From Gemmatimonadota bacterium (GTDB lineage: Bacteria; Gemmatimonadota; Gemmatimonadetes; Longimicrobiales; Gaopeijiaceae): DNA of 38,558 nt. Shown one piece after another: positions 5,203 to 20,990 of the stretch. Position numbers and translations under genes: made by a program. The notes under the pieces were generated by a model. The model was not told the origin of the DNA and searched no databases. It saw only the letters and a program-made list of their open reading frames with translations. Numbering within the stretch: the first letter of the stretch is position 1; every line of letters begins with the position of its first letter. Location of the stretch: positions 1-38,558 of the forward strand of contig JAQBXY010000029.1 in NCBI GenBank assembly GCA_027623325.1, in the 5' to 3' direction.

Positions 5203-5694
5203 CTAGAGAACGAGGGCCGCTCCGACCGCCGCCGTCATGGCAACGCCGGTCGCAACCTTGAGCGCCACTGCGGCGGTTCGCGCAAGCACCAGACCCCATC
5301 CGACGCGGGCCGAGCGTTCAACCGAACGTGTCTCGATGAGCGTCACGAGGCCCGCTCCGACGAACGTACCCACGAAGGCCGTGACGAGGGGACCGATCAC
5401 GGGAATCGGTACACCGATGAACAATCCGACCATCCCGCCGATCACTGCGCCCCAGAACGCCCGACGCGAGCCTCCGAAGTGTTCGCCGAAGCGACGCAAT
5501 ACGACGAACTCGGCGAGCTCGGCCGTCCCAGCCGCGGCCGCTGCCACTGTTCCGAACGTCCAGGAGAGCGACCCCTGGAGCACGAGCCCCAGGACGATCA
5601 CCAACATCAGCCAAAGGCCGGGCAGCCCCAACGGAATAATCAGGAGGCAACCCAGAAGGGCTACCACGACCGCGATGCCGAACAGGACGCTCAC
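5203..5694 (-). CDS. DUF456-family membrane protein
   Basis: A 163-residue, glycine-rich, very hydrophobic protein with GLPGLWLMLV in the first hairpin, typical of DUF456. Membrane segments lie at roughly 2-38, 80-112 and 140-162, with a short polar stretch (VVLRRFGEHFGGSRRAF) between. The GTG start at 5694 has a G-rich Shine-Dalgarno stretch. It lies 89 bp downstream of a lipoprotein gene on the same strand. No molecular function is established for the family. Confidence 0.75.
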   Translation of the reverse strand: MSVLFGIAVVVALLGCLLIIPLGLPGLWLMLVIVLGLVLQGSLSWTFGTVAAAAAGTAELAEFVVLRRFGEHFGGSRRAFWGAVIGGMVGLFIGVPIPVIGPLVTAFVGTFVGAGLVTLIETRSVERSARVGWGLVLARTAAVALKVATGVAMTAAVGAALVL

Positions 5695-5783
5695 GCCACC
5701 CCCTCGAATGGATGCCCCCGAGAGGCCTGCGAGCGGGGGTGTTCCCCTTACGATCGCAGGCCCCCGAGGGATCCACCAGCAAG

Positions 5784-6413
5784 CTACCCGATACTAAGGC
5801 TCTGGCTGATCTGCGTACCGCAGGCGGTCCCAGACACCGTTGCCGAACCCGCCTCGCTCTGCAGTTGGATCGCGCCTGAGAAGGTTACGTTGAGCACGCA
5901 CGTGCCCTCGCGTCCACCGGTCTCCCAGTCGACAGCACCTTCGATGTCTCCGCCCCACTCGACGCCGCCGGCTTCACTGACGTCGACGAAGAACTCCAGA
6001 CCGAGATCTGGGTTGCCCCAGAAGGTGAACTGCCGGTCGGTCTCGGACGCGACCACACAGCCGTCGTGGACGTGGGTCACTTCGTACGCCAACCGTCCGC
6101 CCTCGGCCTCCGTGTCACCGGTCACAGTCAAGGAACCGGCGACGCCGACGTTCCCACCGAGGGGACACGGCACGGTCGCCGCGACCGTTCGATTAAAGGA
6201 GATCGGTGTAGCCTGCGGGCCCCCTGCAGCAGCCGCTGGCTGGAAAGCAGACAAATCCAGGCCGCTCGAGAGCGCCGCCCACATCACCGCGCCGGTCAGC
6301 TCGGCAACCTCGGCCTCCGAGAGTTCACCGACGTTGACCAAGTCATCGCCCCCGCACGCGGACACGGCGATCAGGCCCAACACCGTCACGAATCGAACAC
6401 TCTTCACCGTCAT
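5784..6413 (-). CDS. Hypothetical lipoprotein
   Basis: I do not recognise this 209-residue protein. It begins with a clear lipoprotein signal (LIAVSAC, Cys20) followed by Gly-Gly-Asp-Asp, a tether often seen in surface lipoproteins. The rest is beta-rich, with alternating polar and hydrophobic residues and four cysteines in the mature part, which may form disulphides. AGGAG lies about ten bases before the ATG. It is probably co-transcribed with the DUF456 gene. No function is suggested. Confidence 0.7.
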   Translation of the reverse strand: MTVKSVRFVTVLGLIAVSACGGDDLVNVGELSEAEVAELTGAVMWAALSSGLDLSAFQPAAAAGGPQATPISFNRTVAATVPCPLGGNVGVAGSLTVTGDTEAEGGRLAYEVTHVHDGCVVASETDRQFTFWGNPDLGLEFFVDVSEAGGVEWGGDIEGAVDWETGGREGTCVLNVTFSGAIQLQSEAGSATVSGTACGTQISQSLSIG

Positions 6414-6704
6414 CGTATCTTGTCTCCTGATAGGATTCGTCTCCGCAGAGCATCGGTAGCTTCAAAGGCAAGTGATGTGCCAGACGGCCTTCCTTCTCGG
6501 AAACGCCTGTTTACTGGGTGTGCGTCCTGGCGAAACTCGGCCAATTCAAGCCTAAAGAACCGGCGTCGTGCCCGCATTCGTGCATAACGCCCGAGCCTGC
6601 GCTCCTCCCCGATCGGGGCCTCAGGCAGTACCTTCCGGCCCAATCTCGACCCTCCCTGGAGGCTCAATGACGATCAGGCCGGCGTACGCCTGGAGGGTCG
6701 CACC
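6414..6704. other. Divergent intergenic region upstream of the 13-gene operon
   Basis: This 291-bp gap separates the minus-strand lipoprotein from the plus-strand operon and must hold the promoters of both. I see a perfect palindrome GGCGTACGCC at 6681-6690, just before the GGAGGG ribosome-binding site (6692-6697) of the first operon gene, and a CCCCGATCGGGG dyad at 6607-6618. No convincing sigma-70 hexamer pair was found. Confidence 0.4.
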
Positions 6705-7220
6705 GTGAAGGCACCGGCGAAGCGCCGAGCGCGCCGACCACCGACGAACACACTCGGGTGGAGGGAGTGGGCGGTACTGCCCGAGCTAGGTGTTCGTGCG
6801 ATCAAAGTAAAACTCGATACCGGGGCACGGACATCGTCGCTGCAAGCCTCTGGGCTGAAGCGTTTCTTCCGCGACGGCACCCCGATGGTCCGCTTCGTGG
6901 TCCATCCGGTGCAGCGGTCATCCGTTGCGAAAGTAGAGATCGAGGCGGAAGTGGTCGACGAGCGCGTCGTACGCAGTTCGGGCGGCCACGAGGAGTTGCG
7001 ACCGGTCATTCAGACGGTCGTGCATATCGGCGATCACACCTGGCCGCTCGAGTTGACGCTCGCGCGACGTGACCAGATGGGATTCCGCATGCTCCTCGGA
7101 CGACAGGCATTGAAGAACCGAGTGGTGGTCGATGCCGGGAGCTCTTTCCGGGCCGGTCGCTCGCTCGCTCCCGTGAATCAGGCACGTCGCACGCGGCGAG
7201 CCTCAGAGGACGAAGAATGA
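6705..7220 (+). CDS. Retropepsin-like aspartic protease of the RimB/ATP-dependent zinc protease family
   Basis: A 171-residue cytoplasmic protein of the family once called ATP-dependent zinc proteases and now recognised as retropepsin-like. The active-site motif [11 protein letters not shown] (Asp38-Thr39-Gly40) follows [13 protein letters not shown], and the fold ends with [17 protein letters not shown], the usual Leu-Gly-Arg pair. In Pseudomonas the homologue RimB acts with RimK to remove glutamate tails. The GTG at 6705 has GGAGGG seven bases upstream. Its stop overlaps the rimK-like ATG as ATGA, so the two are translationally coupled. It is the first gene of the long operon. Family call is firm; role in glutamate-tail removal is inferred. 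Confidence 0.85.
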
Positions 7221-8110
7221 AACTCGGTATCCTGTCCCGGAAGGCCAGCCTCTACTCGACGTCCCGGCTACGCGAGGCAGCGGAGAAACGAGGGCATGAG
7301 GTGGAGGTCATCAACTTCCTTCGCTGTTCCATGGGACTCGAAGGGAAGAAAGGCTCCATTCAGTATCGAGGAGCCAGCCTGGAACTGGACGCGATCATTC
7401 CCCGCATCGGAGCGTCGGTCACCTTCTACGGCACCGCAGTCGTACGGCAATTCGAGACCATGGGTGTGTACACGCTCGCCAGCGCCGTCGGTATCGGCCG
7501 CTCTCGAGACAAGCTCTGGTCACACCAGATCCTCGCGCGCGAAGGCCTCGGGCTTCCGGTCACGGCCTTCGCCCGATCGGTCAAGGACACGAACAGCGTA
7601 ATCGCTATGGTGGGCGGTCCTCCACTCATCATCAAGCTCCTAGAAGGAACGCAGGGCTCGGGCGTCGTGCTGGCGGAGACGAAGAAGGCGGCGGAGTCCG
7701 TGATCGACGCCTTCCGCCAACTGGACGCCAACATCCTCGTTCAAGAGTTCGTAAAGGAAGCCGGCGGAAGTGACGTCCGCTGCATCGTCGTGGGCGGTCG
7801 CGTCGTCGCCGCCATGATCCGTCACGCCGCTCCAGGAGACTTTCGGTCAAATCTCCATCGGGGGGGGACCGCCGAAGCAACGAAGCTCACAACGCATGAG
7901 CGCAGAACGGCCGTGCGCGCTGCCAAGGCGCTGGGGCTCAATGTCGCAGGCGTCGATCTCCTCCGCTCCGACCGTGGGCCCCTCGTCCTCGAAGTAAACT
8001 CGTCTCCCGGGCTCGAGGGGATCGAGGGCGCGACGGGTGTCGACGTGGCCGACGAAATCATCGAGTTCGTGGAAAACCACGCGGACGACCAGGAGGTCGC
8101 TGGTGGCTGA
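7217..8110 (+). CDS. rimK: RimK-family ATP-grasp glutamate ligase
   Basis: An ATP-grasp amidoligase of the RimK type. E. coli RimK adds glutamate residues to the C terminus of ribosomal protein S6. The 297-residue length matches (E. coli 300). Visible motifs: [12 protein letters not shown] in the N-terminal domain, [19 protein letters not shown] for the nucleotide loop, [17 protein letters not shown], and the metal/ATP site [14 protein letters not shown]. It overlaps the retropepsin gene by 4 bp and the AstE-like gene by 8 bp. RimK, retropepsin and AstE/AspA-type deacylase genes are known neighbours, interpreted as ligation and removal of amino-acid tags. The substrate could be S6, another protein or a small molecule. 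Confidence 0.9.
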
Positions 8111-9059
8111 TTTCACGTTCGCCGGAAAACGGATCAAGTCGGCCACACGGCAGCAAGTAGAACTCCCGGCTGGCCGACTGCCATCCGGCACACAACTCTC
8201 GCTAGCCGTCGAAGTTCTACACGGTGCAGAAAAGGGTCCGGTGCTGTGGCTGAGCGGTGCGATTCACGGGGATGAGATCGTCGGAGTCGAGATCATTCGG
8301 CGGGTATTGGAACGACTCGACGCACGTCGCTTGTCGGGAACCATCATCGCCGTCCCGGTCGTCAACGTTTTCGGCTTCGTTACAGGATCTAGGTATCTAC
8401 CCGGCCGCCGCGACCTCAACCGGTCGTTTCCTGGATCCGTTCGGGGTCCACTCGCGAGTCGCCTGGCCCGACTCTTCATCGACGAGGTCGTCGATGTGAG
8501 CGACATCGGCATCGACTTTCACGCCGGCTCCGATGATCGCACCAACCTTCCCCAGGTTCGGGGCAACATGGACCACGCGGAAACGCACCGGCTGGGTCTC
8601 GCGTTCGGGGCCCCCCTGGTCCTCCACTCGAAGACGATCAAGGGGACGCTCCGCGACGTCGCGCTGAAGCGGGGCAAGACGATCATTCTTTTCGAAGGCG
8701 GTGAGCCGAGGAGGTTCAGCGAACAAGCTGTGGCGGTGGGAGTCATGGGTACATTGCGCTCGCTCGAAGCGCTCGGAATGGGCGGCATTGTCGGCGTGGT
8801 CCCCGATCCACCGGCCAAGGCTCCGACGCTCTCGCGCTCCACTGCATGGGTGCGAGCTTCCCGCGGGGGAATCTTCCGTCTTGAAACCGAGCTCGGATCC
8901 TACGTCACCAAGGGCGGAAGAGTCGGTATGATCGCCGACCCGTCGGGTCGGGGAGGAAGCGAAGTCCGTGCCCGTTCGACAGGCGTCGTCATGGGACACT
9001 CCGTGAATCCCCTCGTTCACCAGGGTGACGCACTCGTGCATATTGCTGAGTTCGCGTGA
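8103..9059 (+). CDS. Succinylglutamate desuccinylase/aspartoacylase-family zinc deacylase
   Basis: Zinc-dependent M14-like hydrolase of the AstE/AspA family, cleaving acyl groups or terminal amide-linked residues from amino acids. The 318-residue protein has [11 protein letters not shown] (His55, Glu58), the substrate-binding DLNRSFPGS (107-113 region) and [13 protein letters not shown] with His141 as third zinc ligand. The C-terminal part is a beta barrel-like domain ([18 protein letters not shown]). I place the start at GTG 8103 because AGGAGG is six bases upstream (8091-8096); the frame open from 8037 lies inside rimK. The stop overlaps the next start as GTGA. It could recycle products made or released by the RimK/retropepsin pair. 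Confidence 0.85.
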
Positions 9060-10057
9060 AGACTCGAGCGCCACGGCCCAAGTTCCGACGCGCCTCGCAG
9101 TGGTTTCTGTGCGGATTCCTCGGCTGGTCTATGGGCTGTTCCGCCCCCACCGACGGACGGGGGTGGGAGTGCCTTGCTCCGGCGAACGCCGGGGGCGGCT
9201 GGGACCTTACCTGCCGATCGGTCGGACAGGTCGTGTCCGATCTCGGGCTCTCGCCGGGGTTGGTGCGGACCACGAACCTACCCGGCGCCGGGGGCGGAGT
9301 CGCCTACGCTCGCACGGTCGCTCAGCGCGGCGGCGACACCAACGTGATCATCGCGGCGAGCCCGTCGACGGTACTCCGCCTCGCCCAAGGGCAGTACGGC
9401 AGCCTCGATGAAGACGACGTCCGCTGGATTGGCGCTCTGGGAGCCGAGTACGGAATTCTGGCCGTCGCAGCGGATTCACCGTGGAACACGCTCGACGACC
9501 TACTCGCCGCCTGGCGAAGCGACCCGGCCTCACTCGTCGTCAGCGGCGGGTCCGCCGTGGCCGGTCAGGACCACATGAAGGTCCTCCTCCTTGCGCACCG
9601 GGCGGGTATCGACCCGCGGCTGATTCGGTACGTCCCGTTCGACGGTGGTGGGGAGGCGATGACCGCCTTGTTGGGCGGATTCGTTCATGTCTTTTCGGGC
9701 GAGGCGTCGGAGGTCGAAGGCCAAGTCGCCGCGGGCCGTCTACGCGTCCTCGTCGCCCTGTCACCCGAGCGCATGGAGGGCACTCTCGCCTCGGTCCCGA
9801 CGGCCATCGAATCAGGGGTGGATGTGACCTGGGTGACCTGGCGAGGCTTCTACGTACCCGGCGAGATCGGTGACGAGGCGTACGACCGGTGGGTCGACAT
9901 CCTTCGGCAAGTCGGCGCCTCGCCGGCCTGGGATGAGGCGCGTCGGACGAATCGACTCCAGCCTTTCTTCATGACGGGCGAAGAGTTCTCCACTTTCGTG
10001 AAGAACCAGGTCACCGACTTCCGAGAGATGTCGCGCGAGATCGGTCTCATCCGATGA
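9056..10057 (+). CDS. Tripartite tricarboxylate transporter substrate-binding protein (TctC/Bug family), lipoprotein
   Basis: Extracytoplasmic solute receptor that captures a small carboxylated compound for the TctAB membrane permease. The 333-residue protein has a membrane signal ending in a lipobox-like MGC (Cys28), then ECLAPANAGGGWD, the typical first strand-loop of the family, LPGAGGGVAY and VPFDGGGEAMTALLGG. The GTG start overlaps the previous stop. Full tctC-tctB-tctA order follows. Bug proteins bind diverse carboxylates (citrate, glutamate, pyroglutamate, aromatic acids), so the ligand is not fixed; neighbours favour an acylated or glutamyl amino acid. Confidence 0.88.
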   Translation: MKTRAPRPKFRRASQWFLCGFLGWSMGCSAPTDGRGWECLAPANAGGGWDLTCRSVGQVVSDLGLSPGLVRTTNLPGAGGGVAYARTVAQRGGDTNVIIAASPSTVLRLAQGQYGSLDEDDVRWIGALGAEYGILAVAADSPWNTLDDLLAAWRSDPASLVVSGGSAVAGQDHMKVLLLAHRAGIDPRLIRYVPFDGGGEAMTALLGGFVHVFSGEASEVEGQVAAGRLRVLVALSPERMEGTLASVPTAIESGVDVTWVTWRGFYVPGEIGDEAYDRWVDILRQVGASPAWDEARRTNRLQPFFMTGEEFSTFVKNQVTDFREMSREIGLIR

Positions 10058-10497
10058 TCTCACGCGAGCAGCGGATCGTGGCGGCGGCGCTGATCGCCGC
10101 GGGTGTCGCGATCGGCGTCGAGGCGATGACGTTCGAGGTGGGCTTCCTCACGGATCCGGTGGGCCCCAAGGCGCTTCCTTTGGTCGTGGCTGCACTCCTC
10201 GTCTTCGCCGGGTCCTACTCACTGGTTCGGCCAGGAAAAGCCGCCCGCTGGCCGGTCCGTGAGGCGGGCTTCCGGATCGTCGCCGCGGCGGGAGCGTTCG
10301 TGGCATACGCGGTGGCACTTCCGACCATCGGCTTCTTCCTTTCGACGACGCTCGTCGTGATGGCGCTGTCCGCGCTTTATGGCGCGCCACGGGCTCACGG
10401 CCTCGCCGCCGCGACTGCGCTCTCGGGCGTGCTCTGGCTCTTGTTCGTCCGCCTGCTTGCGCTTCCGCTACCGGTGGGGGACCTGTGGATTCGCTGA
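10054..10497 (+). CDS. TctB small membrane subunit of tripartite tricarboxylate transporter
   Basis: A 147-residue protein with four predicted membrane segments (about 8-25, 38-55, 72-100, 110-140), the size and topology of TctB. EVGFLTDPVGPKALPLVVA after the first helix fits the family. It overlaps tctC by 4 bp (ATGA) and tctA by 13 bp, so stoichiometric translation of the transporter is likely. Sequence conservation in TctB is low; the call rests on topology and location between TctC and TctA. Confidence 0.85.
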   Translation: MISREQRIVAAALIAAGVAIGVEAMTFEVGFLTDPVGPKALPLVVAALLVFAGSYSLVRPGKAARWPVREAGFRIVAAAGAFVAYAVALPTIGFFLSTTLVVMALSALYGAPRAHGLAAATALSGVLWLLFVRLLALPLPVGDLWIR

Positions 10498-12023
10498 GCC
10501 ATCTGATGGGCGGTTTCGCGATCGCGCTCCAGCCGCTGAATCTCGGCTTGGCGTTGGGAGGGGTCCTTGTGGGGACCTTCGTCGGCATGCTGCCGGGCAT
10601 AGGCCCCATCAACGCGATCGCCATTCTCATTCCGGTGACCTTCGCGACCGGCATCCCACCGGAATCGGCGCTCATCCTCCTGGTCGGCATCTACTACGGA
10701 TCCCAGTACGGCAATTCCATCAGTACGATCCTGCTGAACGTGCCGGGGACCGCGTCCGCGGTCGTCACCGCGCTCGATGGCTACGAGATGACCAAGCAGG
10801 GTCGCGGCGGCCCCGCACTGGCCATGTCGGCGATCTCGTCCTTTGTCGGCGGAACGCTCTCGATTTTCGCGCTGGTTCTCTTCGCGCCGGTTCTCGCAGA
10901 GTGGGCGATCCGCTTCGGGCCGGCAGAGTATTTCGCGTTGATGATCTTCGCCTTTTCGGCCCTATCGAGCTTCTCCGGGGGAAGCCTCGTACGGGGGCTC
11001 GTGTCGACCGCGCTGGGGCTCGGCCTCGCCACGGTCGGGCTCGACCCCAACAGCGCGGTGCCCCGGTACACCTTCGGGCAAATCGAACTTCTCGACGGCA
11101 TGGACTTCGTCGTCGTGACCATCGGGCTCTTCGCAGTGAGCGAGGTGCTCCAGCTTCTGGAGGATACCAAGGGCGGTCAGCAGACCGCCGCCGCGTACGG
11201 GCGAGTGATGATCTCGGCCAAGGAACTGGCCGGGACGACCTGGACGATGCTCCGTAGCAGCGGTCTCGGCTTCCTGGTCGGCGTCCTTCCGGGCGCCGGA
11301 AGTACGATCGCTTCGTTCCTCGCCTACAGCACCGAGGAGCGGATCGCGGGGACGAGCGGTCGCTTCGGCCAGGGAGATATTCGCGGCGTGGCTGCTCCTG
11401 AGGCCGCGAACAACGCGGCCGCGAACGGCGCCATGATCCCTCTTCTCACGCTCGGAGTGCCGGGCAGCGGAACCACCGCGGTCCTGTTGGGCGCCCTCCT
11501 GGGATTCGGCGTGACACCAGGCCCCCTCCTCATCCAGGAGCAGCCCGACCTGTTCTGGGGCCTGGCAGCTTCGATGTACGTGGGGAACGTGTTCCTTCTG
11601 CTCTTGAACCTGCCCCTCGTGGGCGTGTTCGTGAAGGCGCTCACCCTGCCCCGTTGGTTCCTGATCCCCGGTGTGGCCGCGCTCGCGTTCGTTGCAGTCT
11701 ACGCCGTGAACGGGAGTTCCTTCGATCTCATGCTGATGACGATGTTCGGCGTCGTCGGCTACCTCATGAGGAAGATGGACTTCCCCCTGGCACCAGTGGT
11801 GCTGGGTCTGGTGCTCGGGCCACTCATGGAGAAGAATCTTCGGCGTGCGATGTCTCTTTCCGGGGGGGAAGTGAACGTGCTTTTCGAATCACCCATCGCG
11901 ATCACATTATGGGCCCTCGCCCTCGCAAGCCTCGCGGCACCCACTCTGCTGCGCATGTGGACTCGTGACGTCGTGGCGGAGGTCGACGCAGCGGTTCCGA
12001 CAGGAGTCCCCGATGAACTTTGA
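10485..12023 (+). CDS. TctA large membrane subunit of tripartite tricarboxylate transporter
   Basis: The ion-coupled permease subunit. The 512-residue, highly hydrophobic protein shows two family-specific Gly/Pro-rich repeats: GMLPGIGPINAIAI near residue 26 and GVLPGAGSTIASFLAY near 265, plus YYGSQYGNSISTILLNVPG and PEAANNAAANGAMIPLLTLG. About ten to twelve membrane spans. The GTG start at 10485 has GGTGGGGG about five bases upstream. It overlaps tctB and also the next gene (11 bp). It works with the TctC-type receptor to bring a carboxylate into the cytoplasm. Confidence 0.92.
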   Translation: MDSLSHLMGGFAIALQPLNLGLALGGVLVGTFVGMLPGIGPINAIAILIPVTFATGIPPESALILLVGIYYGSQYGNSISTILLNVPGTASAVVTALDGYEMTKQGRGGPALAMSAISSFVGGTLSIFALVLFAPVLAEWAIRFGPAEYFALMIFAFSALSSFSGGSLVRGLVSTALGLGLATVGLDPNSAVPRYTFGQIELLDGMDFVVVTIGLFAVSEVLQLLEDTKGGQQTAAAYGRVMISAKELAGTTWTMLRSSGLGFLVGVLPGAGSTIASFLAYSTEERIAGTSGRFGQGDIRGVAAPEAANNAAANGAMIPLLTLGVPGSGTTAVLLGALLGFGVTPGPLLIQEQPDLFWGLAASMYVGNVFLLLLNLPLVGVFVKALTLPRWFLIPGVAALAFVAVYAVNGSSFDLMLMTMFGVVGYLMRKMDFPLAPVVLGLVLGPLMEKNLRRAMSLSGGEVNVLFESPIAITLWALALASLAAPTLLRMWTRDVVAEVDAAVPTGVPDEL

Positions 12024-14013
12024 CGGATGGTTTGGACCGTCGGTGACCCGACGCGACTTCGCGCGCATCGTGAGCCTCGCGGCTGCGAGCACCCTCCCAG
12101 GTTGCCGAAGCTCCGCCGCCGACTTCAGCGAAGACGGCATGCCCGTCGATGGCCCATACGACGTCGCGCTGCTGGACGGGATCATGGTCCCGATGCGAGA
12201 CGGCGTGCGCCTCGCCACGGACGTGCACGTGCCCGCCCGAGACGGGTCGACCCTCGACGGTCCGTGGCCGGTCATCTTGGAGCGGACGCCCTACGGTAAG
12301 CAGCGCCCGAGCCGCTCCGAACGATCCGTGGCCGAGCCCGCCCGGGCCAAGACCCGAGACGAGGTGGCACGCATCTTCGTGGAGCGCGGCTACGTCGTGG
12401 TCTACCAAGACGTGCGTGGGCGCTACGACTCCGAGGGGATCTATCAGAAGTATCTCGACGACGCCCCCGACGGGTACGACACCTGTGCGTGGATTCTGGA
12501 ACAGCCCTGGTGCAACGGGAAGATCGGGACGAAGGGGCTCTCGTACGCCGCACATACACAGGGCGCCCTCGCCTCGGCGGGAGCTCCGGGCGTCGCAGCG
12601 ATGTTTCTCGACTCCGGCGGCTTCTCCAATTCGTACCAGGGCGGGATCCGCCAGGGTGGAGCCTTCGAACTGAAGCAGGCCACATGGGCCTATTCCAACG
12701 GAATCCTGAGTCCGGAGGTCACGGGTGACACGGAGTTGTCGGCGGCCATGCAAGCCGTCGACATTCGGCAGTGGTTTCATGAAATGCCATGGAGGCCGGG
12801 GCACTCTCCGGTGAGCCTCGCTCCAGACTACGAAGCCTACCTCTTCGAGCAGTGGACGAAGGGGGAGTTCGACGAATACTGGAAACAGGCAGGCATCTAC
12901 GCGGAGGGCTTCTACGACGTGTGGCCTGATGCCCCCATGGTGCACATGTCGTCGTGGTTCGACCCCTATCCGCGGACCGCGACGGACAACTACCTGGGCC
13001 TCTCGGATGCCAAGCGTGGACCCGTCCGCCTGATTCTCGGGCCATGGACCCACGGTGACCGGTCGCTCACCTGGGCCGGAGACGTCGACTTCGGGCCTGA
13101 TGCGACGCTGGACGGTCAGCTCGCGAAGGACTATTGGGAGCTGCGGGTCCGATGGTTCGATCACTGGCTGCGGGGTGTCGACAACGGCGTCGATCGTGAG
13201 CCGACGGTGCGGTATTTCCTCATGGGCGGCGGAAGTGGCTTGAGGAACGCCGCCGGCCGAATGGATCATGGAGGAAGCTGGAGGACTGCCGAGGATTGGC
13301 CGATCCATGGCACCGTCGAGACACCACACTTCCTGTCGGCCGACGGAAGGCTCACGCTCGCGGAGCCGACCGGCGACGACGTCGGGCGAACCTATCAGTT
13401 CGACCCCGGACACCCAGTGCCCAGCATCGGCGGCACGATCACATCCGGAGCGCCCGTCATGGTCGGAGGAGCCTTCGATCAGCGGGAAGGACCGGACTTC
13501 TTCGGATCTCGTGAGCCATATCGTTCGCTCTCGGAGCGACCGGACGTCCTGGTATTCCAGACCGCACCGCTCACCTCCGACATAGAAGTGACGGGTCCGC
13601 TTCGGGTCAAACTCTGGATCACCTCGGACTGCCCCGATACCGACTTCACCGCCAAGCTCATCGACGTTTACCCGGCCAACGCGGACTATCCGGACGGGTT
13701 CGCCATGAACCTGACCGACGGAATCATTCGGTGCCGCTACCGCGATTCGTGGGAGTCGCCGACGCTCATGGAGCCAGGTCGTACCTATGAGGTCACCATC
13801 GATGCGTTTCCGACGAGTAATCTGTTCAAGGCAGGCCACAAGATTCGGCTCGACATTTCGAGCAGCAACTACCCCCATTTCGACCTGAACTTCAACACGG
13901 GCGAAGCGGAGGGACTCGCCACCCGTTCGAGAGTGGCCACGAACACGATATGGATGGATCGCTCGAGACCGTCACACGCGGTGCTACCCATCGTTCCCGG
14001 CGGGGGACGATGA
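12013..14013 (+). CDS. CocE/NonD-family hydrolase (S15-like), Tat-exported lipoprotein
   Basis: Alpha/beta-hydrolase of the CocE/X-Pro dipeptidyl-peptidase group, hydrolysing esters or amides. The 666-residue product begins with a twin-arginine signal (VTRRDFARIV) and a lipobox LPGC (Cys31). The catalytic triad is complete: Ser177 in GLSYAAHTQG, Asp317 in SSWFDPYPR, His347 in GPWTHGDR; RTPYGK supplies the oxyanion tyrosine (Tyr94 region). The C-terminal jelly-roll domain (about 480-650) is present. The ATG at 12013 has AGGAG six bases upstream; the frame opens earlier at 11965 but only inside tctA. It overlaps tctA by 11 bp. It probably liberates transporter substrates outside the cytoplasm; acyl esters, beta-lactams and peptides are all possible for the family. 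Confidence 0.88.
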   Translation: MNFDGWFGPSVTRRDFARIVSLAAASTLPGCRSSAADFSEDGMPVDGPYDVALLDGIMVPMRDGVRLATDVHVPARDGSTLDGPWPVILERTPYGKQRPSRSERSVAEPARAKTRDEVARIFVERGYVVVYQDVRGRYDSEGIYQKYLDDAPDGYDTCAWILEQPWCNGKIGTKGLSYAAHTQGALASAGAPGVAAMFLDSGGFSNSYQGGIRQGGAFELKQATWAYSNGILSPEVTGDTELSAAMQAVDIRQWFHEMPWRPGHSPVSLAPDYEAYLFEQWTKGEFDEYWKQAGIYAEGFYDVWPDAPMVHMSSWFDPYPRTATDNYLGLSDAKRGPVRLILGPWTHGDRSLTWAGDVDFGPDATLDGQLAKDYWELRVRWFDHWLRGVDNGVDREPTVRYFLMGGGSGLRNAAGRMDHGGSWRTAEDWPIHGTVETPHFLSADGRLTLAEPTGDDVGRTYQFDPGHPVPSIGGTITSGAPVMVGGAFDQREGPDFFGSREPYRSLSERPDVLVFQTAPLTSDIEVTGPLRVKLWITSDCPDTDFTAKLIDVYPANADYPDGFAMNLTDGIIRCRYRDSWESPTLMEPGRTYEVTIDAFPTSNLFKAGHKIRLDISSSNYPHFDLNFNTGEAEGLATRSRVATNTIWMDRSRPSHAVLPIVPGGGR

Positions 14014-15635
14014 CGAAGCAGGCACGGGCGCGCCTATCGTCGAAGCGGCCTTCGGCGATCGTGTTCCTCGCGGTCGCCCTCACGTTCGCTTGTTGGGCAC
14101 CGCGAGCCGAGTACGACATCGTCTTCCTCGGCGGATCGGTCTTCGACGGCTCGGGCGCGGCCGCCGTGCTCGCCGACGTCGGGGTCAGAGACGGCCTCAT
14201 CGCAGCGGTCGGCGACCTGGGGGAGGCTTCGGCCCTCGAGTCGATCGACGCGACCGGTCTCACCATCGCCCCCGGTTTCATCGACGCACACTCCCACGCG
14301 GAGCTCGACGAGGACTACGGACGCGACGCTCGGGCATTCCTTGCGCAGGGAATCACGACGGTCGCGCTCGGGCTCGACGGCGACGGAAGGTGGGACGTCG
14401 CTCGCCAACTGGACGCATGGGCGAGCGACGGCATTGGAGTGAACGGACTTCTGTTCGTGGGCCACAACGCCATCCGCCGCGAAGTCATGAACATGGATGA
14501 CCGCGCGCCCACCTCCGAGGAACTCGCTCGTATGAAGGCGATGGTTCGATCGGCGATGGAGGAGGGTGCCTTCGGGCTCTCCACCGGGCTCTTCTACACG
14601 CCAGGCAACTACGCGACTACCGAAGAGGTCATCGAACTGGCCAAGGTGGCTGCAGAGTGGGAGCGCGCGATCTACGATACCCACGACCGCGACCTCGGAG
14701 CGACCTACCAGGGCATCGGCTACGATGCTTCGATCGCCGAAGGAATCCGAATCGGCGAAGAGAGTGGGCTTCGCGTAACCTTCTCCCACTTCAATCCACA
14801 GGGTGCCACGAACTACGGTCGCGCCGAGGTCGGCGCCCGGATGATCGAAGATGCGCGCGCGCGTGGAGTAGAAGTGTGGGCCGCCCAGCACCCGTACACG
14901 GCGACACAGTCGAATCTGCGAGCCTACGCGCTGCCTCGATGGGCGACCGCTGGGGGCCAAGACGCGATCATGCGACGGTTCGCACACCCCGACACGCTCG
15001 CGATCCTCCGGGTCCAGATGTTGGAGAGCCTCGCCATGCGCGGGGGGCCCGAGAAGATCATGATCGTCGACGAGGATCCCCGCTTGAACGGGCGGACCGT
15101 AGCCGCGCTCGCGGCCGAGTGGGGGATGACCGTGCCTGATGCGCTGCAGACGGTCTTCACGGACAGCGGCAACGCCACCGTAATGAACCTCGACCTGTAC
15201 GACATCGAGAACACTCGGTACCTGGCGGGAATGCCGTGGATGATGACGTGCACCGACGGGCGGACTCCGGCCGAAGGACAGGTCACGGTGCATCCTCGCG
15301 TCTACGGCGCTTTCGCCCGGAAAATGCGCCTCTTCGCACTGGACGAGAATGTCATCAGCGTCCCTTTCGCGATTCGCAGCTTCACCGGACTGGCCGCTGA
15401 CTTCTTTGGGCTTTCCGACCGTGGCTACATACGACCTGGAATGCGCGCCGACCTGGCGATCCTCGATCTCGATACCTACCGCGACATGGCCACGATGGAA
15501 GCCCCGCATCAGTACGCAGAGGGAGCCGTCCATGTCCTCGTGAACGGGGCGTTCGCGATCCGGGACCGGGCGTTCCTTGGCACGATGGCGGGCGAACCGA
15601 TCCGTGCCAGCTGGGAGTACTCCGGTGACCGCTGA
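14010..15635 (+). CDS. N-acyl-D-amino-acid deacylase-like amidohydrolase, second copy
   Basis: A 541-residue amidohydrolase related to D-aminoacylases, with a probable lipoprotein signal (LTFAC, Cys28). The HxH motif is intact (GFIDAHSHAE, His94 and His96). YDTHDRD and FSHFNPQG carry the barrel histidines and TCTDGR the catalytic Asp. The cysteine expected in GNCG is replaced by Asp123 (GLDGDG). The ATG at 14010 overlaps the preceding stop as ATGA; the frame open from 13950 is inside the CocE-like gene. It is clearly paralogous to the 1214-2935 enzyme but differs in the metal-site replacements. Here it lies between an extracellular hydrolase and acyl-CoA enzymes, suggesting that it releases an acyl group that is then activated. 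Confidence 0.85.
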   Translation: MTKQARARLSSKRPSAIVFLAVALTFACWAPRAEYDIVFLGGSVFDGSGAAAVLADVGVRDGLIAAVGDLGEASALESIDATGLTIAPGFIDAHSHAELDEDYGRDARAFLAQGITTVALGLDGDGRWDVARQLDAWASDGIGVNGLLFVGHNAIRREVMNMDDRAPTSEELARMKAMVRSAMEEGAFGLSTGLFYTPGNYATTEEVIELAKVAAEWERAIYDTHDRDLGATYQGIGYDASIAEGIRIGEESGLRVTFSHFNPQGATNYGRAEVGARMIEDARARGVEVWAAQHPYTATQSNLRAYALPRWATAGGQDAIMRRFAHPDTLAILRVQMLESLAMRGGPEKIMIVDEDPRLNGRTVAALAAEWGMTVPDALQTVFTDSGNATVMNLDLYDIENTRYLAGMPWMMTCTDGRTPAEGQVTVHPRVYGAFARKMRLFALDENVISVPFAIRSFTGLAADFFGLSDRGYIRPGMRADLAILDLDTYRDMATMEAPHQYAEGAVHVLVNGAFAIRDRAFLGTMAGEPIRASWEYSGDR

Positions 15636-16416
15636 AACCGACACGATCCTCGTGCGACGGGAAGGCGCCGTCACCGTCCTCACGCTCAACCGCCCGGAAC
15701 GACTCAACGCGGTTAGTCTGCGCCTCTACGAGCGACTTATCGAGGAATTGGCGCGGGCGGACGCCGATCGGGAGACGCGGTGCGTCATCCTCACCGGATC
15801 GGGTCGCGCGTTCTGTGTCGGCGCCGACCTCAAGGCACACGGCGAAACGCCCCTCTCGGACGCAGATCGCGATCGGTACACGCGGAGTGCGCAGGAAGCG
15901 AACTACCGAATTCAGTCGATGGGCACGCCGGTCGTCGCCGCGGTGAACGGCCACGCCATCGGGGCGGGACTCGAACTCGCCCTCTCGGCGGACTTCATGA
16001 TCGTTTCCGAATTGGCCAAGCTGCGTCTGCCGGAGATCTCTCTGGGCACGTTCATCGGCGGAGGCGTCGTGTACACGCTCGCGGAGAGAGTCGGCGTCCT
16101 GAAGGCGCGCGAGATCGTCTACATGGGTGACTTCTTCCTGGGTTCCGAAGCCGCTGAGATGGGGCTGGCCAACGCGGCGGTTTCCACCGACGATGTGATG
16201 CCCGTCGCACAGAAGTGGGCCGATCGGCTCGCTGAGAAGGCCCCGCTATCGCTGGCTGCCGCGAAGCGGCTCATCGGTCCCGCCGGCACGATGTCCCGCG
16301 ACGAGGCGCTCGAGCTGGAACGAACGGAACTCGTGAAGATCTTCGGGAGTGCAGATTGGAAGGAAGGTGTCGACGCGTTCCACGAGAAGCGGCCTCCCCG
16401 GTACGTGGGTGAGTAA
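15625..16416 (+). CDS. Enoyl-CoA hydratase/isomerase (crotonase) family protein
   Basis: Crotonase-fold enzyme acting on acyl-CoA thioesters. The 263-residue product has RAFCVGADLK for the first oxyanion-hole loop, GHAIGAGLELAL for the second, and both catalytic glutamates (Glu117 and Glu137, 20 residues apart like Glu144/Glu164 of rat hydratase), so hydratase activity is plausible. The GTG at 15625 has GGGAG seven bases upstream and overlaps the deacylase stop by 11 bp; the open frame further upstream lies within that gene. With the acyl-CoA ligase behind it, it could take a released unsaturated acid into beta-oxidation. Confidence 0.88.
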   Translation: MTAETDTILVRREGAVTVLTLNRPERLNAVSLRLYERLIEELARADADRETRCVILTGSGRAFCVGADLKAHGETPLSDADRDRYTRSAQEANYRIQSMGTPVVAAVNGHAIGAGLELALSADFMIVSELAKLRLPEISLGTFIGGGVVYTLAERVGVLKAREIVYMGDFFLGSEAAEMGLANAAVSTDDVMPVAQKWADRLAEKAPLSLAAAKRLIGPAGTMSRDEALELERTELVKIFGSADWKEGVDAFHEKRPPRYVGE

Positions 16417-16417
16417 G

Positions 16418-18577
16418 GTGGCTGGCTCGGAGCGCCACTCTCTCGATCCGATCCTCGACCCGGCCTCGGTGGTCGTTGTGGGCGCAAGCGCCGACCCCGC
16501 GAAGCGCGGATACCAGATCCTCCGCGCGCTCGGGGAGTCCGGCTACCGAGGGAAGGTGTTCGCAGTGAACCCGCGCGGCGGGGAGATTCTCGGGAGGGAG
16601 GTGTTCCCCTCGATCGAGGCCCTTCCCGAACCGGTGGATCTCGCCGTCCTGTGCACGCCCGCAGGTGCGGCCCCTGACTTGGTTCGCGCATGCGGTGCGC
16701 GGGGGATCGCGGGTGCGGTCGTCCTCGCGGTAGGCTTTGGAGAATCAGGGACGGCAGGCCGCGCGCTCGAGGCCGAACTGGTCGCCGCAGGCCAGGCATC
16801 CGGCGTCCGCATTATCGGGCCCAACACGTCGGGGCTTCTCAATCTACCCAAGGGCCTCAATCTCATCGGCGCGCGGGGCATCCGACCGGGAGGTATCGCG
16901 CTCCTGGTTCAGTCCGGGAACATGGCCCTCGCGCTCATGAACGAGGTGACCGAACGCTCCTGGGCCGGAATCTCCGTCTGTCTCGGCGTCGGCAACGCGG
17001 CCGACGTCGGCTTCGGTGAGGCGCTCGAGTGGTTGGGCGAGCACGACGATACGCGAGCCGTGATTGTCTATGTGGAAGGCTTCAAGGACGCCCGGGGATT
17101 CCTGGAGGTGGCCTCTCGGGTCAGTCGGACGAAGCCGGTCATCGTCATCAAGTCGGCCAGAACCTCCGACGGTGCCGCTGCGGCTCAGTCGCACACAGGC
17201 TCGGTCGCCGGTCCCTACGATCGACTGCGCGCGGGGTTTCGCCAGGCGGGCGTCGTCGAGGTGACGAGAACGGACGAACTGCTCCACGTCGCCGAGTCTC
17301 TGGCACACCAGCCTTCCTGCTCCCCCGAAGCCGGCATCGCGATCTTGTCGGACGGGGGCGGTCAGGGCACTCTCGTGGTCGACGCGCTTTCCGAGTCCGG
17401 AGCTCGACTTTCCGCGCTGTCGGCTGCCACTCAATCACAGCTCCGAAACCTCCTCGGGCCGGCCGCGGGCGTGTCGAACCCCGTCGACCTGGCCGGGGCC
17501 GCCGACGCCGATCCCCTGGTATTCGCCGCCGCGCTCGACGTCCTGTCCGCCGACCCGGATGTCGGAACGGTCCTGCTGGTAGGTCTGTTCGGCGGATACG
17601 GAATTCGTTTCGCAGAACGTCTCGGGGAAGGAGAGGCACAGGCGGCGGAAGCGATGGCCGCGCGGATGCGCCAGCGGGGGAAGGGCCTCGTCGTCCACTC
17701 CATGTACGCGGGGCATCGCAGTGCCCCACTCGCGATCCTGGGCGAGCAGGGTGTTCCTGTCGTCGGCTCGCTCGATGTGGCGTGTCGCTGCGTGACGGAG
17801 TTGCAGGCGCGCGGTCGCGATGTCGCTCGCCTGGCATGGCCCGCGGCGGGGGCGCTTCCTGACGAGTCCACACGTCCTCCAGTCCCCGCGATCGTAGCAG
17901 CCCGCGAGGAGAATCGGACGACGCTGAGCGAGCCCGAGGCGCGCGCCCTGCTCAGCGACTTCGGCGTGGTCTTTCCCGAGGCCTACTTGGTCTCCTCAGC
18001 CGACGAGGCGGCCGCGGTCGTCGAACGGCTTGGCCGCTCCGTCGCAGTGAAGGCCGTGTCGAAACGGATCATCCACAAGTCGGACGTCGGAGGGGTGGCC
18101 CTGAACGTGGAGGACAGGAACGAAGCGCGCGCCGCGTTCGAATTGAACTGCGGTCGGGTGGCCGCACGCGCCGAAGAGTTAGGCCTCCCACGCGAGGCCC
18201 CAAGCGCGTTGGTGACGCCCATGCTCGATCGTCCGCTGATGGAGATGCTGGTGGGTGCCCAACGTGACCCCGTGCTCGGCCCTGTCCTGACGATCGGCGC
18301 GGGCGGGATTTGGGTCGAACTCCTGGCGGACGTGGCCCATCGTGTGCTGCCCGTCACCGACGACGACATCCGGGGCATGGTCGATGAACTCGTGATTGGG
18401 GCGATGTTGCGCGGCGCGCGCGGCCAGCAGGCCGGACATATCGACGGTGTGGTTCAGGTCGCAACCGCGATCGCCCAGTTCCTTCTCGCCGTGCCCGAGG
18501 TTCAGGAAGTAGAGATCAACCCGCTCTTCGTGTATTCCGACAGAGTGGCTGCGGTCGACGCCCGGGTGACGTTGTAA
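16418..18577 (+). CDS. ADP-forming acetate/acyl-CoA ligase, fused alpha-beta type
   Basis: NDP-forming acyl-CoA synthetase that interconverts acid + CoA + ATP with acyl-CoA + ADP + Pi. The 719-residue chain has the CoA-binding domain (VVVGASADPAKRGYQ, about 18-145), the succinyl-CoA-ligase-like domain with the phosphorylated histidine (QSHTGSVAG, His259), and a C-terminal ATP-grasp domain from about 500 (SVAVKAVSKRIIHKSDVGG). I prefer GTG 16418 because GGTGA lies five bases before it; GTG 16409 is an alternative. It starts one base after the enoyl-CoA hydratase stop. It either activates a released acid or makes ATP from acyl-CoA. Confidence 0.9.
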   Translation: MAGSERHSLDPILDPASVVVVGASADPAKRGYQILRALGESGYRGKVFAVNPRGGEILGREVFPSIEALPEPVDLAVLCTPAGAAPDLVRACGARGIAGAVVLAVGFGESGTAGRALEAELVAAGQASGVRIIGPNTSGLLNLPKGLNLIGARGIRPGGIALLVQSGNMALALMNEVTERSWAGISVCLGVGNAADVGFGEALEWLGEHDDTRAVIVYVEGFKDARGFLEVASRVSRTKPVIVIKSARTSDGAAAAQSHTGSVAGPYDRLRAGFRQAGVVEVTRTDELLHVAESLAHQPSCSPEAGIAILSDGGGQGTLVVDALSESGARLSALSAATQSQLRNLLGPAAGVSNPVDLAGAADADPLVFAAALDVLSADPDVGTVLLVGLFGGYGIRFAERLGEGEAQAAEAMAARMRQRGKGLVVHSMYAGHRSAPLAILGEQGVPVVGSLDVACRCVTELQARGRDVARLAWPAAGALPDESTRPPVPAIVAAREENRTTLSEPEARALLSDFGVVFPEAYLVSSADEAAAVVERLGRSVAVKAVSKRIIHKSDVGGVALNVEDRNEARAAFELNCGRVAARAEELGLPREAPSALVTPMLDRPLMEMLVGAQRDPVLGPVLTIGAGGIWVELLADVAHRVLPVTDDDIRGMVDELVIGAMLRGARGQQAGHIDGVVQVATAIAQFLLAVPEVQEVEINPLFVYSDRVAAVDARVTL

Positions 18578-18581
18578 CTCC

Positions 18582-19352
18582 GTGGGAGGAAGCAACCATC
18601 CGGAGGCTACCCCCACGCCGGAAGCCGACGACTGGGGATCGCGGCTTTTCCGCTGGCGCAGTTATCCGCCCGTGTTCGTTGTTGCGCTCATCGTACTGAT
18701 TACACTGGGGAGCCCTCGCGCCATCTCCGACGAGACCTCGGCCGTGATCTGGAGTGGTGTCGGAATCGCCCTCGGCATCATCGGGTTGGCCATTCGGGCT
18801 GCTGCGATCGCTGCGGCCCAGCCGGGAACCTCCGGACGTTCTACGCGTGCCATGACGGCGGACGCCCTAAACTCGGACGGCATGTACTCCGTGGTCCGGC
18901 ACCCGCTCTACCTGGGCAACCTGTTCCTCTGGCTCGGCGTTGCAGCGATTTCGGGCCACCCGCTTGCGATCGCCAGCACCGTGGCTCTGTTTGGCGTGCT
19001 CTATCGGCCGATCATTCGCGCCGAGGACAGATTTCTACGTCGACGTTTCGGATCGGAGTTCGAGCGATGGGCGAAGCGAACACCCTCGTTCCTGCCATCG
19101 CGTCGCTCAGTGTTCCCTTCGCGGTTTCCGTTCAACGCCCGTCGTTGGCTGGATCGCGACTACCACGCAGTGTACGCCTTCGTGGTCGCCTCGTCCGTCG
19201 TGGGCCTCGCCGGCATCGCAGCGCAGAGCGCGCTCCGCACCCCGGCAAGCCGAGTCTGGCTTTCATACCTCATCGCAGGCACTGTGATCTTCACCGCCTT
19301 ACACGTGTTGCGGCGAACGGGACATACGGGGCGAGGGTCGGAAAAGGGATGA
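18582..19352 (+). CDS. ICMT/PEMT-like membrane methyltransferase family protein
   Basis: A 256-residue integral membrane protein with the isoprenylcysteine carboxyl methyltransferase-like core: hydrophobic helices at about 30-50 and 56-76, GMYSVVRHPLYLGNLFLW (SAM-binding RHPxYxG signature) and EDRFLRRRFGSEFERW after the last core helix. Two more membrane helices at about 195-245 extend beyond the usual bacterial length. The GTG at 18582 is only 4 bp after the acyl-CoA ligase, with a weak ribosome site. Bacterial homologues methylate lipids, isoprenoids or carboxylates; no substrate can be assigned. Confidence 0.78.
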   Translation: MGGSNHPEATPTPEADDWGSRLFRWRSYPPVFVVALIVLITLGSPRAISDETSAVIWSGVGIALGIIGLAIRAAAIAAAQPGTSGRSTRAMTADALNSDGMYSVVRHPLYLGNLFLWLGVAAISGHPLAIASTVALFGVLYRPIIRAEDRFLRRRFGSEFERWAKRTPSFLPSRRSVFPSRFPFNARRWLDRDYHAVYAFVVASSVVGLAGIAAQSALRTPASRVWLSYLIAGTVIFTALHVLRRTGHTGRGSEKG

Positions 19353-19359
19353 GGTATTC

Positions 19360-19758
19360 TTGCTATTGAGCGGAAGGGTCGAATCGGGCCATGGTGATGC
19401 GTCTCGGTGGCTGTCCCGCTTCAACGCCGAATACGCAACGAAGGCCGGGATGCCCATCTTTCCGGGTTCCCTCAACCTGCGTCTCAACCATCTGTTCGAC
19501 TGGTCCGACGAAGCCATCGGACCGTTGCTCGTCGAGTTTGCCAGAAGCGAGTACGGTGGTGAGCGCGACATCCTCTTGCTTCCCTGCCTACTCCGAAGCC
19601 TAGGTGACATGCGGGCCTATCTCTGGACGACGACGAACGGAGCGAGTTCTTCACACGACGTCGTCGAAATCATCACCTCCCTCGGTCTGCGCGACCACTT
19701 CGGCCTGTCGGACGGCGACATGGTCGAGTTAGAAGTCGGCTGGGGACCCGTCGGTTGA
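19360..19758 (+). CDS. DUF120 protein, archaeal CTP-dependent riboflavin kinase-like
   Basis: A 132-residue protein resembling the archaeal riboflavin kinase family (RibK, DUF120), which phosphorylates riboflavin to FMN with CTP. The pattern GRVESGHGDASRWL, then a variable segment, then FPGSLNLRL matches the family's G-x-V-x-S-G-x-G and PG-[ST]-LN signatures. The C terminus (LSDGDMVELEV) fits the barrel's last strand. Start is a TTG at 19360 with GATGAGG upstream; no ATG is available. It follows the methyltransferase by 7 bp and overlaps the next gene as TTGA. Bacteria normally use RibF, so either this is an additional kinase or the fold has another job. Confidence 0.7.
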   Translation: MLLSGRVESGHGDASRWLSRFNAEYATKAGMPIFPGSLNLRLNHLFDWSDEAIGPLLVEFARSEYGGERDILLLPCLLRSLGDMRAYLWTTTNGASSSHDVVEIITSLGLRDHFGLSDGDMVELEVGWGPVG

Positions 19759-20375
19759 CCCCCCGCGAGGAGTTGGCGAACAGCCTCAGCCACGGCGTCG
19801 GACTCGCCGGCGCCATCGCGGCGACGCCCATCCTGATCGTGGGTGCCGTCGCGCGCGGCGGCGCAGCGGACATCGTGGGTAGTAGCGTCTTCGGCTTTAC
19901 CATGATCGTGATGTACTTCGCGTCGACGTGGTATCACGCGACACTCCCCGGGACGCGCAAGGACCGACTCCGCAGATTCGACCACGCAGCGATCTACCTT
20001 CTCATCGCCGGCTCCTACACACCCTTCACACTTGGTGTCCTCGGCGGTGCCTGGGGGTGGACGCTTTTTGGTGTCGTGTGGGGCGCCGCGGCCATCGGAG
20101 TCGGCGTGAAGACCCTCTCGGGTGTTAGCCATCCCCGCGTATCGACAGCCATGTACCTGATCATGGGATGGTCGATTCTCATCGCGATCCGGCCGCTGAC
20201 TTCGAACATGCCGCCTGAAGGGCTACGGTGGCTCGTCGCAGGTGGGCTGTGCTACTCGGGAGGCGTCGTATTCTTCGCGCTCCGTGGCCTGCCCTACAAC
20301 CACCTGGTGTGGCACTTGTTCGTGCTCGCGGGCTCCACGTGCCACTTCTTCGGAGTGCTGTGGTACGCGACGTAG
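19755..20375 (+). CDS. Hemolysin III/PAQR-family membrane protein
   Basis: A seven-helix membrane protein of 206 residues with the HlyIII/PAQR signatures: LANSLSHGVGLAG at the N terminus, STWYHATLPG, RRFDHAAIYLLIAGSYTPF and HLVWHLFVLAGSTCHFFGV, which give the putative zinc ligands (Ser, His and Asp in the first half, HxxxH at the end). It starts with TTG overlapping the previous stop. It is the last gene of the thirteen-gene run; the next 213 bp are non-coding and show no strong terminator. Biochemical role of bacterial members is unsettled. Confidence 0.87.
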   Translation: MTPREELANSLSHGVGLAGAIAATPILIVGAVARGGAADIVGSSVFGFTMIVMYFASTWYHATLPGTRKDRLRRFDHAAIYLLIAGSYTPFTLGVLGGAWGWTLFGVVWGAAAIGVGVKTLSGVSHPRVSTAMYLIMGWSILIAIRPLTSNMPPEGLRWLVAGGLCYSGGVVFFALRGLPYNHLVWHLFVLAGSTCHFFGVLWYAT

Positions 20376-20588
20376 GACCGTCGGTCAGTGCGTATAGGTG
20401 ACGGATTTCGTAGGGATCATGAACGGACGTGAAACTATGAGGACCGGGAGGGATAGGAGCTACCACAGGTCGCCGAGCGCGTGAGCGACTCATAGCGTGG
20501 GCCGTCTACGTCACAATGCGTATGGGCTGAAACGTTCTATGACCGCAGCTTGGCAGACCATCGCAGATCATCCCATGGGAGGGCATCC

Positions 20589-20945
20589 ATGAGCCTGAAT
20601 ACATATCGACGGCTGGCGGTCCTCGCGCTTGTACCGTTTTTACCTGGGGGGACGTCGATGTCCCCCATGCACCTCGACGCCGCCGAGACCGTATGGGCGG
20701 GGGTTCCCGTGCCGCTTCCGGTCACCACGAGCGACGAAGACAGGGCGGTTCTCCCCGATCCTCGCGTCGAAAACGACTCACTCGCTAATGAGGCTCCCGC
20801 GCCCCCTGCCGGTGCCGAGATGAACTCCGTCGGCGTGCCACGAGTCGACCGGCGATGGACGTTCACCTTGATTCTCTTTTCTGCTGTCACGCTCCTCGCG
20901 TTGGGGATCGGTCACGCGACGGCCAGCGATCCTTGGGGGGATTGA
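20589..20945 (+). CDS. Small exported/membrane protein of unknown function
   Basis: An unrecognised 118-residue protein. It has a hydrophobic N terminus (RRLAVLALVPFLPGG), a polar Pro/Asp-rich middle and a C-terminal membrane helix (WTFTLILFSAVTLLALGIG). GGGAGGG lies five bases before the ATG at 20589, and the frame could open at 20550 but without a ribosome site. The layout suggests a signal peptide and one anchor, with the middle outside the cytoplasm. It is 45 bp upstream of the monooxygenase gene. No function can be stated. Confidence 0.55.
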   Translation: MSLNTYRRLAVLALVPFLPGGTSMSPMHLDAAETVWAGVPVPLPVTTSDEDRAVLPDPRVENDSLANEAPAPPAGAEMNSVGVPRVDRRWTFTLILFSAVTLLALGIGHATASDPWGD

Positions 20946-20990
20946 CGAGCGACCCATAAGCGTCTGATCGCGATCGCAGCGCGAGGCTCC

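Follow-up and report, generated by a model that had tools for sequence, protein, structure and literature searches.

Does a run of thirteen genes packed almost without gaps on one strand encode one pathway? The question was raised by contig JAQBXY010000029.1 (assembly GCA_027623325.1) of a Gemmatimonadota bacterium, analysed at its full length of 38,558 nucleotides and hereafter called the window. The window (64.6% G+C) is the entire contig C19 of a 3.35 Mb genome (G000) in 60 contigs, and the block consists of 13 open reading frames (ORFs), all on the + strand, between positions 6705 and 20375. The block is real and unusually long. It is also a genus-level composite of known modules and probably not one pathway: it was likely assembled in a single Gemmatimonadota genus from three otherwise separate modules, whose joining would serve shared expression and not one metabolic chain. 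Among relatives, the block split into module M1 (RimB-RimK-AstE), module M2 (TctC-TctB-TctA with CocE), module M3 (amidohydrolase, crotonase and acyl-CoA ligase) and a tail of three genes.

Gene content and packing of the block

The block encodes, in order:

6705 to 7220, + strand: RimB-like retropepsin, M1 (PF05618, E 5.4e-36; DTG motif at D38-T39-G40)
7217 to 8110, + strand: RimK alpha-L-glutamate ligase, M1 (NF007764, 420.9 bits, cut-off 331; solved RimKs 7qyr, 5zct and 4iwx)
8103 to 9059, + strand: AstE/AspA-type zinc hydrolase, M1 (PF24827, E 8.4e-33)
9056 to 10057, + strand: TctC solute receptor, M2 (PF03401, E 4.3e-22; lipoprotein-like N-terminus)
10054 to 10497, + strand: TctB, M2 (PF07331, E 4.8e-17)
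10485 to 12023, + strand: TctA permease, M2 (PF01970, E 2.5e-160)
12013 to 14013, + strand: CocE/S15 hydrolase of the cocaine esterase family, partner of M2 (TIGR00976, 373.9 bits, cut-off 66.3)
14010 to 15635, + strand: D-aminoacylase-like amidohydrolase, M3 (PF07969, E 1.3e-20; D-aminoacylase 1rjp, E 3e-59)
15625 to 16416, + strand: enoyl-CoA hydratase (crotonase), M3 (PF00378, E 4.7e-59; best solved match 5zai)
16409 to 18577, + strand: nucleoside-diphosphate-forming (NDP-forming) acyl-CoA ligase, M3 (PF13549, PF13607 and PF13380; best solved match 9y43)
18582 to 19352, + strand: ICMT/PEMT-type methyltransferase, tail (PF06966, PF04191)
19360 to 19758, + strand: protein like DUF120, a CTP-dependent riboflavin kinase, tail (PF01982, 36.6 bits, cut-off 25)
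19755 to 20375, + strand: TrhA/HlyIII membrane protein, tail (NF011669, 250 bits, cut-off 80)

The first-pass annotation had described these thirteen genes as a nearly gapless block and had named the first ten; family searches upheld the names, and the packing was borne out with suitable starts. Successive junctions, with the starts chosen here, measured -4, -8, -4, -4, -13, -11, -4, -11, -8 (or +1), +4, +7 and -4 bp. These lengths depend on inferred starts, and a simple gene caller favoured later ones for TctC, the methyltransferase and the riboflavin-kinase-like gene, which left gaps of 71, 94 and 97 bp. With the same caller, the RimB/RimK junction of -4 bp recurred in four congener loci (L002, L003, L004 and L005) and the TctB/TctA junction of -13 bp in five loci (L002, L004, L005, L037 and L043), while the AstE/TctC junction of -4 bp was also present in L004 and was looser in L002 and L005. 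An opposite-strand gene ended 291 bp upstream of the block, and 615 bp lay between the end of the block and an FMO-like gene, an interval in which one small unlabelled ORF (20589-20945) was called.

Packing was compared with that of 20 other stretches of the G000 genome, totalling 346,681 bases and 307 called genes and each at most 20 kb long, so that runs there may be cut by stretch ends. With gaps of up to 100 bp allowed, the longest same-strand run comprised 13 genes in the block versus 10 in the control stretches. With the caller's starts and gaps of at most 30 bp, the block fell into runs of three and seven genes, and the control maximum was seven. Consensus scanning of positions 5500-21500, weak evidence in this phylum, returned no promoter-like site (shuffle mean 1.7) and five terminator-like sites (shuffle mean 7.8); two of the latter were on the + strand inside the block, at 9672 (TctC) and 20036 (HlyIII).

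Within M1, the DTG motif of the RimB-like protein was kept at the 97% level in a 28-sequence alignment, and the RimB and RloA3 NCBIfam models matched the retropepsin far below their cut-offs (RimB equivalog 113.8 bits, cut-off 200). A RimK orthologue was found with a DTG-bearing RimB adjacent to it, which would place the pair in the RimB-RimK system. As in Pseudomonas rimABK, according to excerpts of PMC11957791, the retropepsin directly precedes RimK, and RimK scored above the cut-off of the S6-ligase model; the third partner is the phosphodiesterase RimA in Pseudomonas but an AstE-type hydrolase in the block, and S6 lacks a free C-terminus in the window's family. The rlo operon of P. aeruginosa (excerpts of PMC12239564) likewise combines a retropepsin with an ATP-grasp protein, but it includes an RloB-type transmembrane protein that the block does not have, and the block retropepsin scored higher with the RimB model than with the RloA models. 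The solved chains closest to AstE were the DoeB-type deacetylases 6twl/6twm, and in 11 sequences its residues E58, N106, R107, H140 and E198 were invariant and H55 nearly so. RimK-AstE neighbourhoods are already known, as the first-pass annotation had stated. A literature search without most subscription journals found no paper on them, nor any pairing RimK with succinylglutamate desuccinylase.

TctC, TctB and TctA were adjacent, each over its Pfam cut-off, and shared with the tripartite tricarboxylate transporters, as outlined in excerpts of PMC5812351, all three parts and the order C-B-A; the block differs from these systems in the CocE-type hydrolase after TctA. The closest solved relative of TctC was 4x9t (E 5e-22), followed by BugD (E 8.9e-10) and BugE (2dvz, only E 3.6e-8). 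Two cysteines of the TctC subfamily, C39 and C53, were present in 22 of 22 aligned sequences. CocE falls within the CocE/NonD hydrolases by its TIGR00976 score. Its N-terminus is twin-arginine and lipobox-like and that of the amidohydrolase lipoprotein-like; these signals, as well as that of TctC, were judged by eye and no predictor was used.

The best solved relatives of the amidohydrolase were D-aminoacylase and N-acyl-D-glutamate deacylase (1rjp, 3gip), from which it differs in falling below the PRK09061 cut-off (175.1 bits versus 340) and in standing beside a crotonase and an NDP-forming ligase. The top solved match of the crotonase (5zai) is a 3-hydroxypropionyl-CoA dehydratase, and that of the acyl-CoA ligase (9y43) a 3-hydroxypropionate--CoA ligase; all NCBIfam models for the ligase scored far below cut-off.

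Modular conservation among relatives

The comparison set comprised 148 related Gemmatimonadota genomes including the window's own, 88 of them in its family and 60 outside, with 14 members in its genus. Presence was called at E <= 1e-40 for RimK, at E <= 1e-120 for CocE and at >= 65% identity for a TctA orthologue. RimK was present in 34 genomes, TctA in 44 (25 at >= 65% identity), the acyl-CoA ligase in 72 and CocE in 23. Neighbourhoods were annotated by tblastn and by clustering of called genes; they covered 34 RimK loci (every match but the window's own), 21 TctA orthologues not yet covered by other loci, and 19 ligase loci picked among the closest matches.

All three M1 genes, RimB, RimK and AstE, were present in 25 of the 34 RimK loci. 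TctA followed AstE in three of them (L002, L004 and L005), all from the window's genus, besides the window itself, and a further locus (L074) carried AstE-TctC-B-A running to the contig end. M1 stood beside M2 only in that genus, in G000, G003, G005 and G007, to which AstE-TctC in G010 may be added (of 14 members). Among the best 80 of 96 named TctA loci, RimK lay near TctA in three (L079, L084 and L120), which are contigs of G005, G007 and G003. The joined ten-gene order was not found outside the genus in the fetched RimK, TctA and ligase loci or in those best 80 of 96, contig ends limiting several of them.

Smaller sets were kept more widely. Of the 23 genomes with a CocE match, 15 had a TctA no more than about 6 kb from CocE, a proximity that extended to family f4, where TctA was only 34-44% identical. 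Of the 19 ligase loci, 18 had the crotonase next to the ligase, the remaining one (L073) starting inside the ligase, and 13 had an amidohydrolase match, either before or after the crotonase-ligase pair. Both sub-sets, CocE with TctCBA and amidohydrolase-crotonase-ligase, look like working units. In the congener G008, the window's upstream genes were followed directly by TctC-B-A-CocE without M1 (L043), its RimB-RimK-AstE sitting on a separate contig (L003), and CocE was followed by an opposite-strand gene in G005 and G006.

Variants and neighbours of the modules were also observed. RimK of a second class (L023-L029) was 54-56% identical to the window's and had a C-terminus about 90-110 residues longer, and the AstE next to it (L023, L025, L028 and L029) was only 34-36% identical. 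Genes for M20-type peptidases or amidohydrolases lay near the TctCBA genes of other genera of the family (L036, L038, L039, L040, L042, L051 and L052), as labelled by Pfam for one representative per cluster. A deoxyhypusine-synthase-like gene stood beside amidohydrolase-ligase-crotonase in two genomes (L062, 2345-3319, minus strand; L056), and three genomes (L053, L072 and L075) had an IclR-type regulator gene next to the crotonase or ligase. Upstream of the block, the window carries a creatininase-family gene (4245-5174, + strand) between DinB-like and DUF456 genes, absent from the matching G008 stretch (L043), and a second amidohydrolase (1214-2935, minus strand) of the block enzyme's broad family, with relatives in L004, L005 and L043.

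Composite unit or single pathway

Co-occurrence was computed for 15 gene pairs over the 88 family genomes, with p-values uncorrected for multiple tests and relatedness ignored. RimK (28 genomes) and close TctA (24) shared 17 genomes, with p = 1.6e-4 once genome size and completeness were controlled and p = 0.010 without the window's genus. RimK-CocE was significant only with that genus (p = 1.1e-4; 0.19 without it), and RimK-ligase and TctA-ligase were non-significant once size was controlled. Neither of the flank controls, FMO and KynU, was positively linked to RimK or TctA at a significant level. The FMO-KynU control pair itself reached p = 0.014 over genera, and nominally negative links came out for RimK-KynU (p = 0.028), ligase-FMO (p = 0.014) and ligase-KynU (p = 0.0065). 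Since control pairs were nominally significant, p-values of such size arise without known cause, and with 15 pairs and relatedness ignored the RimK-TctA link gives only a weak hint.

Several observations weigh against a composite of separate modules. Many fetched contigs stop near the anchor gene, so some links may be unseen. In G003, one contig carries the genes from RimB to the amidohydrolase and the N-terminal part of the crotonase before it ends, while a second starts inside the ligase and continues with genes other than the methyltransferase; because the two cover RimB to crotonase and the ligase, the ten-gene core is probably kept there across a contig break, hence in two species, with the last three genes outside the core. 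Two loci speak against strict separation: in L053 (G014), TctCBA and crotonase-ligase share a strand, with about 6.5 kb and genes of the opposite strand in between, and an actinomycete locus (L125) held 31-32% matches to crotonase and ligase near TctC and TctA. Counted over genera without the window's own, RimK and TctA gave 9/6/3/21 (p = 0.0035), a co-occurrence beyond the genus that hints, weakly, at a functional link of M1 with M2.

The first-pass annotation had read the genes as one pathway, in which CocE and the amidohydrolase work outside the cell, a carboxylated amide enters through TctCBA and is deacylated by AstE, the acid is handled by the ligase and hydratase, and RimK/RimB form a glutamate ligation and removal arm. 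The identities, the tight junctions and the two sub-sets as units stand, and the probable core in G003, the RimK-TctA co-occurrence and the N-acyl-amino-acid deacetylases closest to AstE point towards it. One pathway is nonetheless distinctly unlikely, as the modules separate outside the genus, where M1 was never beside M2 and M2-M3 proximity was only loose (L053, L125), as RimK-ligase and TctA-ligase co-occurrence did not survive the size control, and as M2 occupies the same site in G008 with M1 absent from it. No evidence tied a glutamate arm to acyl-amide breakdown. Conservation was largely confined to the small sub-modules, except for M1 with M2 in four to five of the 14 congeners and the probable core of G003, and G003 did not retain the last three genes. 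A tie limited to M1 and M2, by which TctCBA would import glutamate or acylated glutamate, AstE would free it and RimK would use it, with M3 as a passenger, is quite unlikely. Excerpts of PMC5812351 and PMC11957791 report that the Bordetella receptor BugE binds glutamate and that RimK makes poly-glutamate in vitro, and the RimK-TctA co-occurrence agrees with such a tie; TctC, however, is closer to 4x9t than to BugE or BugD, its ligand is unreadable from sequence, and M1 and M2 are joined in the window's genus only.

For M3 alone, the best solved matches of ligase and hydratase recall the enzyme pair of the archaeal 3-hydroxypropionate route, which would be turned to 3-hydroxypropionate or acrylate and fed by an N-acyl-beta-alanine-like amide. 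The 3-hydroxypropionate ligase model gave 352 bits (cut-off 1300), however, and the acetate--CoA ligase model scored higher (397 bits, cut-off 1200); the hydratase matched 220 solved crotonases, and the ligase search also found dimethylsulfoniopropionate (DMSP) lyase, which leaves this role very improbable. Packing by chance, in which unrelated genes would end up in one run without shared control because the genome is compact, GC-rich and short of intergenic space, would fit the runs of 9 and 10 genes found within 347 kb of the same genome and the last three genes not being kept in G003. It is unlikely, since several junction overlaps are identical in congeners and the block is the longest run seen with gaps of up to 100 bp.

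The composite of three modules thus remains the likely reading, and the block may be expressed as a single transcript. M1 would be a cytosolic set that writes and trims polyglutamate: RimK would add glutamates onto a C-terminus or make free poly-glutamate, RimB would cut glutamate runs, and AstE could take off terminal acidic residues or deacylate a glutamate-like compound; since deacetylases are its solved relatives, deacylation and deglutamylation stand on an equal footing for AstE. M2 with CocE could form a scavenging unit, in which exported CocE would free a carboxylate that TctC binds and TctAB imports. In M3, an N-acyl amide would be hydrolysed, the acid activated as a CoA thioester and the enoyl-CoA hydrated. 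The comparison shows module borders within a long gap-free block, which guards against reading such a block as one pathway.

The S6-S18 fusion and the target of RimK

One surprising result emerged beside the block: a family that has kept RimK has S6 and S18 fused into one protein. According to excerpts of PMC11957791, RimK adds glutamates at the C-terminus of ribosomal protein S6 and RimB cuts them. In G000, the sole match to either ribosomal family was a 217-residue frame holding both PF01250 (S6) and PF01084 (S18) (L186, contig C2, 423-1073, minus strand), in which an acidic linker joins S6 to S18 in frame; the loci in relatives were L156-L225. Of the 82 family genomes that matched both families, 76 had the two domains in one open frame; six further genomes were without one or both. 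The six non-fused cases were split over contigs (G004), separate (G043, G048 and G050) or out of frame (G053 and G076). Outside the family, the fusion was found in 0 of 56 genomes (four more were without both matches). Fused cases included the single-contig genomes G017, G034, G037, G052 and G077, which speaks against an assembly error, and the methionine preceding S18 was H, V or I in other genomes, which speaks against a conserved second start. No plasmid record covered 80% of the fusion in one place in a single protein search, and no literature on the fusion was found in a search without most subscription journals.

RimK was commoner in the family (28 of 88 genomes) than in related genomes outside (6 of 60), and each of the 24 family genomes with both RimK and an S6 match had the fusion, 23 by sequence and G029 by frames. 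The free acidic S6 C-terminus that is the textbook RimK substrate was therefore lacking in G000 and in all 24. With the S6 end inside the fusion, the usual RimK reaction would need a prior cut or another substrate, and the S6-S18 protein may be cut after translation. Possibly, though on balance this is doubtful, the fusion uncoupled RimB-RimK-AstE from its known target on the ribosome; the three enzymes would now tag a different protein or maintain a store of poly-glutamate, with a link to the import of carboxylates in one genus.

A bolder form would have RimB cut the acidic S6-S18 linker and RimK extend the freed S6 tail; cleavage would then switch ribosome tagging. The linker data disfavour it. 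RimB of P. fluorescens requires a stretch of six consecutive glutamates, five being enough when the first of them is the encoded terminal residue (excerpts of PMC11957791), and the longest glutamate run reached >= 5 in 2 of 23 RimK-bearing versus 5 of 30 RimK-less fused genes (p = 0.69). The glutamate share of acidic residues (D+E) in the linker was lower with RimK (0.47 versus 0.59, p = 0.0014, uncorrected for relatedness). In this comparison, four RimK-less linkers (G010, G011, G034 and G061) were over-long owing to a crude pattern, and G010 was entered as RimK-less, its AstE-TctC at a contig edge suggesting a lost RimK.

Other candidate targets of RimK gained no support. The acidic tail of RimB itself (EDEE in the window) had no counterpart in the congener loci L002, L004 and L005 and is not general. 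Scanning G000 for EEE before a stop gave 12 sites versus 16 for a control pattern (the pattern also admits TGG), and the glutamate-tailed proteins found included a zinc-ribbon protein, RpoB, a MazE-like and a DsbA-like protein. The zinc-ribbon protein (L246, 682-1509) ends in DEDEEEEE; an EEE end also occurred in congeners that have RimK and in the RimK-less congeners G009, G011 and G013, and no association with RimK was found (9 of 30 tails could not be resolved).

RimK is thus retained in this family though the annotated S6 end lies inside a fusion, which makes the family a natural test of RimK's purpose. Automatically assigned names such as 'S6--L-glutamate ligase' within it are either wrong or hide a processing step.

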